Part shown: in pieces, positions 39,990-42,398 of the stretch
Numbering within the stretch: position 1 is the stretch's first letter
How the letters are laid out: every line of letters starts with the position of its first letter
Source: Acidobacteriota bacterium
GTDB lineage: Bacteria; Acidobacteriota; Blastocatellia; Pyrinomonadales; Pyrinomonadaceae
Length of the DNA: 64,000 nucleotides
Reading direction: 5' to 3'
Assembly (NCBI GenBank): GCA_020199835.1
Contig: JAIVJV010000009.1
Location: forward strand, 124,001-188,000
The notes under the pieces: model-generated
The model's database searches: none
The model's input: the letters and a program-made list of their open reading frames with translations, nothing else
Told to the model about the DNA's origin: nothing
Made by a program: the position numbers and the translations under genes

Positions 39990-41267
39990 TCACAGATCGC
40001 GCGCACAACGAAAGCCTGAGAGCATCCAGCGTTCGTGTGCGTGAAAGAAGTTTCGGTACGTCGTTCTGATGTGCAACCGAGGCGTGGCAAACGAACCGCC
40101 GCGCAAAACCTTTTGATTGACGAACCACTTGTCGTTGTATTCGTCAAACTCCGACTTGAATCCGGGATACGGCACGTAATCGGAAGTCGTCCATTCCCAG
40201 ACGTCGCCAATCATCTGCTGGCAACCGCCCGCAGTAGCGCCTTCGGGAAAAGCGCCGACAGGCGTTACTGACCAGAAACCGTTGTCGAAGAGATTGGCGC
40301 TGCCGGTATCGGGGTCGGTGTCGCCCCAGGGAAATCGGTGCTTAACTTTGCGTTCCGCATCATAACACGCCGCCTTCTCCCATTCAGCTTCTGTCGGGAG
40401 TCGTTTGCGTGCCCACTTGGCGAAGGCGGAAGCTTCGTAATAACTGACGTGTGAGACGGGATCGTCGCTACGGCTCGCGGCTGGTTGCAGACCGCAGAAG
40501 TCGCGAATCATCCACTCGCGGTCATGCAGTTCCCAGTAAAGCGGCGCCTGCCACTGTTCGCGTTTCACGGTTTCCCAGCCTTCGGAAAACCACCAGCGGA
40601 AGTTCTCGTAACCACCGTCCTTCATAAACTCAAGGAACTGGCCATTAGTAACCAGACCTCGATCCAGCTGAAAATCCCGTAAGAAAACCTGGTGAGCGGG
40701 TTTCTCGTTATCCCACGAAAATTCCTTCCCCTCATAACCCAACCAAAACAAGCCACCTTCGACTTCAACCATGCCCTCTACTCTTGTTTGCGGCTTCGGA
40801 AGCGGCGTCATTTTTGGCTGAAACTGATCACCGAGCAGGTGCTTGATGTCGTAGACGAGCAACTCCTGATGTTGCATCTCGTGTTGGAGACCCAGTCGAA
40901 CCACGGATGACACGGATTCGGCGGCGGATCTTAGGAAATCGAGCATGTGCTCATCGATGTGGTTGCGATACGCGATAGTGTCTCGAACTGTCGGACGGGA
41001 CTTGGTGCCGCGCTTGGGTCGTTCGATCCGCGCGCCAAATCCTTCGTAGTAGGAATTGAAGTAAAACAACAAATCTTCCGAATAGACTTTGTAACCCGGC
41101 TTGTGTGCCTGAAGCACCGTTTCAAAGAACCACGAGGTATGACCGATGTGCCAGCGCGGCGGACTCATAAACTCCGCCGTTTGGATCACATAGTCTTCAA
41201 TCTCGAGTGGAGCAACGATTTCCATCGTGCGCGCACGAACCTGCTTGTATAAATCAATTATCGACAT
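39990..41267 (-). CDS. EgtB/SenA-family nonheme-iron sulfoxide (or selenoxide) synthase
   Basis: A 425-residue protein with an N-terminal DinB-like four-helix domain and a C-terminal FGE-sulfatase/C-type-lectin domain. The iron ligands expected for EgtB are visible: H43 in HIGHTSWF, and H129 and H133 in LQHEMQHQE, with E135 next to the second. The C-terminal domain shows [22 protein letters not shown] and GFRCARDL. EgtB joins a histidine betaine and a sulfur donor through iron-dependent oxygenation. It lies 20 bp after selD on the same strand. No egtD-like methyltransferase is adjacent. The SelD pairing suggests SenA, which uses a selenosugar; see the findings. Confidence 0.85.
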
Positions 41268-41287: not shown

Positions 41288-42319
41288 CTAGCTCACAACT
41301 ATCGAGTGTGAGCCGCGGGGGGAAACTCGTCCGATTATCTGAGCCCGGGGGTAATTCTCGCGTAATGTGCCAAGCAGAGCCTCTGCTTTGTCTGCGGCCA
41401 CGGCGATCAGCATTCCACCAGCCGTTTGTGGATCAAACAACAGCTTGACGAGATTTGAATCGACCGCCGGAGCAATCTCAATATCCGCGCCGACATATTC
41501 ACGGTTGGTCTTGTCGCCGCTCGTCAAGATTCCGGCAGTAGCCAACTCCAACGCGCCATCGAGCAGCGGCACTGCACGAGCTTCGATCTCGATTGTCACA
41601 CGGCTCGCGCATGCCATCTCCCACGCATGTCCGAGCAGGGCAAATCCCGTCACGTCCGTCGCGCCTTTTACTTCGAACTCGCGCATCGCCTCGGCTGCAT
41701 ACTTGCCCGGCGTCAACATCGTTTCCACCGAACCCGCCACAATCGCATCACTCGCGCGGGCTTTTTTGATTCCCGTGGAAATCACGCCCGTGCCAATCGG
41801 TTTCGTCAAAATGACGACATCGCCGGGCCGCGCGCCCGAGTTCTTCGCGACTTTGTTCGGATCGATAACACCCGTAACCGAGTAACCAAACATGATCTGC
41901 GTGTTATCGACGCTGTGACCACCAATTAAAGTCACGCCGTATTGGTTAAGTGTCTCGATCCCGCCGCGCATGATTTGCGTCAGAATCGCGGGATCGACAC
42001 CGGTCTTCGGAAAACACGTGATCGCCAGCGCCGTGATCGGCGTGCCGGCCATTGCCCATACATCGTTAATTGAGTTAAGCGCGCTGATGCGGCCATAGTC
42101 GTACGGGTCATCGACTATCGGCGTGAAGAAGTCTACAGTTTGTACCAAAGCGAGGTCGTCGCGGAGACGGTAAACTCCCGCGTCGTCGGCCGTGTCGAAG
42201 CCGACAATCAGATTGGGATCCGCGGGTTGTTTTGGTAGCTCGCTCAAAACCTGAGCGAGTAAGCTCGGGCTAAGCTTGGCCGCTCAACCAGAACACGAAA
42301 CCATCTCAGTCAGACGCAT
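41288..42319 (-). CDS. selD: Selenophosphate synthetase, selenocysteine-containing (in-frame TGA)
   Basis: A 343-residue protein when the in-frame TGA at 42284-42286 is read as selenocysteine (residue 12). The start is ATG at 42319 with an ideal AAGGAGGT ribosome binding site. The N-terminus reads [18 protein letters not shown], and U12 and K15 align with C17 and K20 of E. coli SelD. The next candidate initiation codon, TTG at 42247, lacks this active site. Later motifs ([30 protein letters not shown]) match the ATP-binding core. The enzyme makes selenophosphate from selenide and ATP. It heads an operon with the EgtB-family gene. Confidence 0.93.
42239..42286 (-). promoter_or_regulatory. Bacterial SECIS-like hairpins just after the selD TGA
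   Basis: Two overlapping, mutually exclusive hairpins follow the TGA on the selD strand. In the first, TGAGCG (42286-42281) pairs with CGCTCA (42257-42252), with AAGCT/AGCTT stacked inside. In the second, CTCGCTCA (42259-42252) pairs with TGAGCGAG (42246-42239) around the loop GGTTT, whose GG begins 32 nt after the TGA. A hairpin with a G in the apical loop at this distance is the standard recognition element for SelB. Confidence 0.7.
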
Positions 42320-42398
42320 CGAAGGGCACCTCCTTCCTAAGGTTCCAAGGGATATCTGTGTTTTACCATAGTTGCTAAAGTTCACCGAAGGGAGCTGA

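Follow-up and report, generated by a model that had tools for sequence, protein, structure and literature searches.

A selenocysteine-type selD and a candidate selenoprotein cassette beside extra tRNA-Sec genes in a Pyrinomonadaceae bacterium

We confirmed that the selD gene of a Pyrinomonadaceae bacterium is of the selenocysteine (Sec) type and carries a bacterial SECIS hairpin, and we found that extra tRNA-Sec (selC) genes of the same genome probably mark a cassette with a candidate new selenoprotein. The selD gene lies in the window, the whole stretch of 64,000 nucleotides of DNA that was analysed, and the cassettes lie outside it. The catalytic residue of SelD in this organism is almost certainly selenocysteine, with UGA decoded through SelB and the SECIS hairpin. 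We infer that the source organism decodes UGA as Sec, as a preliminary description of the locus had proposed, which is well supported by selA, four selC genes and the conserved TGA.

The selD gene and its in-frame TGA

The selD coding sequence is found on the minus strand at 41288..42319, where the frame runs from an ATG at 42319 without a further stop through 41300 (340 residues) and its stop codon ends at 41288. With the TGA counted as a residue, the product has 343 residues, and the full-length protein matches the NCBIfam model TIGR00476 (SelD) with 362.3 bits (cut-off 125). The TGA (42284..42286, minus strand) is residue 12, and phmmer aligned residue 12 with Cys17 and residue 15 with Lys20 of PDB entry 3u0o, in agreement with the preliminary description; we take 3u0o to be E. 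coli SelD and assume the roles of its Cys17 and Lys20. The ribosome-binding site that had been noticed before the ATG is present as a Shine-Dalgarno-like AAGGAGGT (42328..42335, minus strand), read in the sequence 8 nt 5′ of the start codon. As had also been pointed out, the mechanical ORF begins at a TTG at 42247 and lacks the N-terminal part with the TGA, and reading from the ATG at 42319 restores U12. Plain ORF calling thus mis-annotates selD and removes the active residue.

The codon at this site was compared in 97 genomes, the source and 96 relatives, a set that overlaps with a second set of named SelD loci. SelD was found in 88 of the 97 genomes and the site was readable in 86, with G092 and G053 left out of the count as matches without the N-terminus. 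TGA was present in 77 of the 86 readable genes and a Cys codon in nine. Among the 52 named loci, 38 were read and 14 left out, and TGA was found in 28 of the 38 and another codon in 10. The TGA-containing loci comprise 26 of the 27 acidobacterial-type loci (one of them a MAG labelled Akkermansia), one delta-proteobacterial locus and one from a Chloroflexi MAG, and the named SelD genes closest to that of the source belong to Pyrinomonadaceae MAGs (84-85% identity). Since the TGA recurs at the same site in 77 of 86 related genes, a sequencing error, which the preliminary description had named as a possible source of the codon, is very unlikely; with the frame recurring in relatives as well, a pseudogene at selD was likewise rejected.

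In a tree of 83 SelD rows, each of at least 250 residues, eight Cys-type genes form one clade, and only that of G007 falls within the Sec genes (support 100/99). The SECIS-type loop is missing in eight of the nine Cys-type genes and kept in that of G007 (L138, of which L019 seems to be a duplicate record), where the codon is TGC and the hairpin is still intact. The nesting of G007 within the Sec clade together with the kept hairpin suggests that its SelD underwent a recent Sec-to-Cys replacement. In addition, two genomes, G035 and G055 (99 and 97% complete), yielded neither a selD match at 1e-40 nor a selB above the cut-off, and their best RF01852 matches were 46.8 bits in G035 and 47.6 bits in G055, the latter just above the cut-off of 47; at the thresholds used, this is a coherent loss of the Sec trait. 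Sec is the usual SelD residue among the relatives searched, and the change from Sec to Cys is caught in one genus.

Sec-containing SelD is an established type, as had been stated, and in one reference set (PMC4561486) it accounts for 19% of SelD. The selD gene studied here is an ordinary but clean case of this already known kind. It has in common with known Sec-SelD (TIGR00476; UxxK motif in the accessible part of PMC13188914) the Sec at the Cys17 position, a Lys at +3 and a bSECIS just downstream; nothing essential differs, and the loop is mostly RGUNN in the present set. The Cys-SelD genes of the same class (G061, G065, G069, G073, G077, G088, G091 and G094) belong to the same enzyme family and come from genomes that all eight have selB over the cut-off, but they carry a Cys codon and no G at loop position 2 of the SECIS place. 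In the open-licence literature we found no paper on Pyrinomonadaceae with selenocysteine; within the portions available, PMC1794560 mentions Acidobacteria twice and PMC12013277 once, for a genome with three known selenoproteins.

The selenocysteine machinery and the neighbour of selD

The source assembly comprises 4.87 Mb in 18 contigs and is 83% complete. A search of the genome for selA, selB and selC had been proposed together with the Sec reading, and two of the three are present: an intact selA occupies C12:63670-65028 and precedes the window by about 59 kb (547 bits, cut-off 268), and selC is represented by four tRNA-Sec genes with the anticodon UCA (66.8-69.4 bits, cut-off 47). For selB, no match over the cut-off was found in this 83%-complete assembly. 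In the whole-genome set, selB is over the cut-off in 84 of 97 genomes; by hand count, 10 of the 77 Sec-type genomes are without an over-cut-off selB, and so is the close relative G005 (93% complete). The gene bshA, whose identity was confirmed by the model TIGR03999, is next to selB or one gene from it in the four relatives inspected, lying directly before selB in G003 and G011 and separated from it by a VWA-type gene (named by eye) in G004 and G015. Since G003 and G011 have selB without an adjoining VWA-type gene (their best matches to it are 54 and 44%), this gene is no marker, and bshA is the sole linked marker left. In the source genome bshA was not found, its best match reaching 33% over half the length. 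In G003, bshA and selB lie in a block of about 22 kb (G003:C1:36397-58769; L239 and L240) whose order is common to G004. This block was not seen in C15:90000-229999, the 140 kb around the main selC of the source genome; there, the genes adjoining selC are conserved and the blocks beyond them are different.

With bshA and selB both missing, the whole block appears to be missing, through a gap in the assembly or a loss in the organism. Recent loss of the block from the organism would make selD a decaying gene whose TGA is now a stop, and the missing selB and the absence of the bshA-selB block as a unit are what this reading would predict. We consider it very unlikely, since the assembly is only 83% complete, selA is intact, the four selC copies keep G73, CCA and the acceptor and T stems, the selD frame is otherwise intact, and the two cassette genes of the source genome described below keep translated-type conservation past their TGA. 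The incompleteness of the assembly leads us to lean towards an assembly gap rather than a deletion. Formate dehydrogenase alpha (FdhA), the common partner selenoprotein, was considered in this role and rejected, as none of the matches listed from the source and six related genomes has a TGA; none in the source genome is over the cut-off. The source genome also contains a partial MnmH/SelU match (G000:C12:326962-327498, L231; 157 bits against a cut-off of 219.75, 182 of 311 positions), which may be a selenouridine synthase in truncated or divergent form.

The downstream neighbour of selD is egtB (39990..41267, minus strand; TIGR03440, 483 bits, cut-off 360), and an EgtB match lies within the locus in 16 of the 27 acidobacterial-type SelD loci, one at only 35% identity and several of the 27 loci ending at contig ends. 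As the selenoneine synthase SenA and its cluster (NF041186, TIGR04348) likewise have an EgtB-like enzyme beside SelD, selD and egtB might together form a selenoneine pathway of the SenA-SenC type that is the main use of selenophosphate, and the recurrence of EgtB beside selD fits such an arrangement. Unlike in that cluster, the neighbour is over the EgtB cut-off and under that of SenA (343 bits, cut-off 420), and SenB reaches at best 34 bits against a cut-off of 300 in the 83%-complete source assembly. The selenoneine reading is therefore not supported and is improbable, and the neighbour is taken as egtB rather than a selenoneine synthase. Another genome of the same genus, G012, has a SenB-family glycosyltransferase over the cut-off (G012:C260:7018-7989, L229; 377 bits), and selenoneine synthesis may exist there.

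Hairpins after the selD TGA

The bacterial SECIS hairpin of selD (42239..42259, minus strand) has an 8-bp stem and can be written CUCGCUCA-GGUUU-UGAGCGAG; its loop, at 42251-42247, begins 32 nt past the TGA, as the preliminary description had it for a second hairpin with a GG-containing loop. A 26-nt piece with this hairpin folds at -12.8 kcal/mol (z -4.3), and 0 of 200 shuffles were equally stable. The limits given for bSECIS elements in the accessible part of PMC13188914 are a loop of 3-9 nt, a stem of 4-16 bp, a G within loop positions 1-2, a spacing of 16-37 nt and a minimum free energy of at most -7.5, and the selD hairpin lies within all of them (loop 5 nt, stem 8 bp, GG, 32 nt, -12.8 kcal/mol). 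As a measure of chance, 3.0% of the 2077 TGA triplets counted over the two strands of the window have at least 8 contiguous pairs, with G-U allowed, in the permitted range, and the selD TGA scores 9 in the same count. With this background rate, the selD hairpin by itself is weak evidence.

Covariation was scored in 76 distinct 72-nt windows around the site against a null in which synonymous codons were shuffled among the sequences at each codon (300 shuffles). Pairing in the SECIS stem was 0.870 compared to 0.822 under the null, and covariation was 0.257 compared to 0.170, with 0 of 300 shuffles reaching either value. In addition, loop position 2 is G in 76 of 76 windows and position 3 is U in 75 of 76. 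As controls, the pairing was slid, and two of four slid pairings (+1 and +2) also exceeded the null (0 of 50 shuffles) at low pairing (0.36 and 0.31), which suggests that the covariation statistic is somewhat inflated by shared ancestry. Judged from these alignments, the selD SECIS appears to be under selection as RNA. Taken together, the conserved TGA and the covariation of the stem beyond the synonymous-codon null settle the reading of the selD codon as Sec.

The first hairpin, which includes the TGA (42268..42289, minus strand), had been described as mutually exclusive with the SECIS. The two hairpins stand as described, but they are compatible in this sequence, and the lowest-energy fold holds both the first hairpin (42289-42268) and the SECIS. 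The SECIS is excluded by a different pairing, in which UGAGCG, at the codon, pairs with CGCUCA in the SECIS arm. A translational switch, in which the UGA stays paired with the 5′ arm of the SECIS until SelB binds and selenium autoregulation results, could draw on this pairing, which gives the fold of lowest energy in one relative (L015), but such a switch is very unlikely, since the pairing (0.899 compared to 0.897 under the null) and its covariation were reached by 107 and 105 of 300 shuffles and the SECIS stem exceeded the null in both.

With the TGA read as Sec, the ribosome would start at the ATG at 42319 and reach the UGA after 11 codons, where SelB with Sec-tRNA-Sec, docked on the hairpin at 42259-42239, would insert Sec in place of termination. 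The catalysis of SelD is known from the family. The Sec, placed in an N-terminal loop, would make selenophosphate from selenide and ATP together with Lys15. Since the selenophosphate would then feed SelA, a Sec-type SelD would depend on its own product.

Extra tRNA-Sec genes and a candidate selenoprotein cassette

The four selC genes of the source genome (G000) lie on C15 (L001), on C6 (L002 and L003, 2.1 kb apart) and on C11 (L004). They are non-identical, and all have G73, CCA, an intact seven-pair acceptor stem and an intact T stem. One compensating change in the variable arm sets all three remaining copies apart from the top-scoring one, and a second such change is found in one of the three. 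Mismatches that the top-scoring copy does not have occur at the outer anticodon-stem pair in two copies and at a D-stem pair in one, and one of these three copies has a further mismatch in the variable arm. At the eighth acceptor pair, all four genes (e.g. L001) have A-A, and relatives were seen by eye to have A-A, C-A or A-G, a state near the 7/5 forms described in the accessible part of PMC5330540. The multi-selC genomes in that part of PMC5330540 likewise have additional selC copies that differ in sequence, carry G73 and show compensating changes, but its Table 3 gives at most two tRNA-Sec genes per bacterium, in contrast to the four found here, of which three also have a mismatch not seen in the best copy. 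The significance of spare tRNA-Sec genes is called unclear there. C6 and C11 resemble each other over long stretches (88.7% over 3.5 kb and 79% over 3.6 kb).

Beside selC copies in three genera, we found a gene for the same unnamed secreted-type protein 0.4-0.7 kb downstream, with TGA as its apparent stop. It is present twice in the source genome (L160:8984-10036 and L161:8505-9566, both minus strand) and once each in G039 (L225:7615-8550, minus strand) and G016 (L224:3448-4347, plus strand), genomes of other genera in each of which one of two selC genes adjoins it. All four copies have the in-frame TGA, a conserved read-through and a GC-rich hairpin. The gene starts about 610 bp (C6), 370 bp (C11), 700 bp (G039) and 670 bp (G016) past the end of selC. 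These genes were found by inspecting the neighbourhoods of second selC copies, and one lies within 0.7 kb of four of the five such copies with enough downstream sequence. For the fifth, the other selC on C6, the gene follows at a distance of about 2.7 kb, beyond the second selC of that contig. In G004 the contig ends too close to the second selC, and this copy was left out of the count. G067 has a weaker second selC match, which ARAGORN did not report as a tRNA and which lacks a cassette gene nearby, and no cassette gene was found within 1.5 kb of the 30 best-scoring selC loci of other genomes, some of them truncated.

The cassette gene has about 250-260 codons up to the TGA, and read-through would add 90 (C6), 92 (C11), 52 (G039) and 47 (G016) further codons. 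About 47 of the read-through codons are well conserved, with the pattern GFPWV[VIF]-U-PVI[PS]DPRxGGIA...VKNxDGSEQSP across the site. For the 49 codons past the TGA, dN was 0.009 and dS 0.626 between the two source-genome copies, and dN was 0.12-0.13 and dS 1.3-1.8 between these copies and that of G039. The low dN relative to dS marks the sequence past the TGA as translated. A hairpin with a C5/G5 stem and a loop of GGGAC, GGTCC or GGTTC is present in four of four copies; the distance from the T of the TGA to the start of the stem is 17 nt, and the loop, 19 nt after the TGA, is within the bSECIS range. The stem is invariant in all four, leaving no variation for covariation, and folds of 60-nt pieces show it in some copies only, least in G016.

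By eye, the N-terminus of the cassette protein resembles a signal peptide. Three full-length read-through proteins had no match in NCBIfam at E up to 1 and, in Pfam, only two chance matches (E 0.24 and 0.31); the fourth was scanned as a 261-residue part alone. No motif listed in the accessible part of the 119-family inventory (PMC13188914) fits the protein, several entries there having no motif; most of the 119 entries carry a Pfam or NCBIfam accession, with the cd and PTHR entries outside the scan. Further members were not found in plasmids, phages, viral contigs or PDB chains. The cassette protein is therefore a candidate new selenoprotein family.

The next gene encodes a multiheme-cytochrome/TPR protein on C6, on C11 and in G039 (three of four copies), and ArsS with a partner is nearby on C11 and in G039. 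On L161, near the selC copy, lies an arsenosugar cluster (L161:12296-15187) of ArsS, a peroxidase-like protein and two glycosyltransferases; by eye, its ArsS and peroxidase-like protein carry Cys rather than Sec. In G016, selA (L224:1365-2534), 61% identical to the source-genome selA, is directly before selC, and in G039 (L225) a 27-residue remnant of the 3′ end of selA (E 1.8e-4) is just upstream of selC. These comparisons make it quite likely that the extra selC genes mark a Sec cassette consisting of selC, perhaps ancestrally selA-selC, and a new secreted-type selenoprotein of 300-354 residues that belongs to no described family and would carry Sec in GFPWV[VIF]-U-PVI[PS]DPR near its C-terminus, with the multiheme-cytochrome/TPR gene next in three of four copies and arsenosugar genes near two. 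Duplication of this cassette in the source genome would account for four tRNA-Sec genes in one bacterium.

The cassette matters more than selD itself and is more novel. If its protein is a true selenoprotein, it would add one family to the inventory of 119 and would suggest a reason for the retention of spare tRNA-Sec genes.
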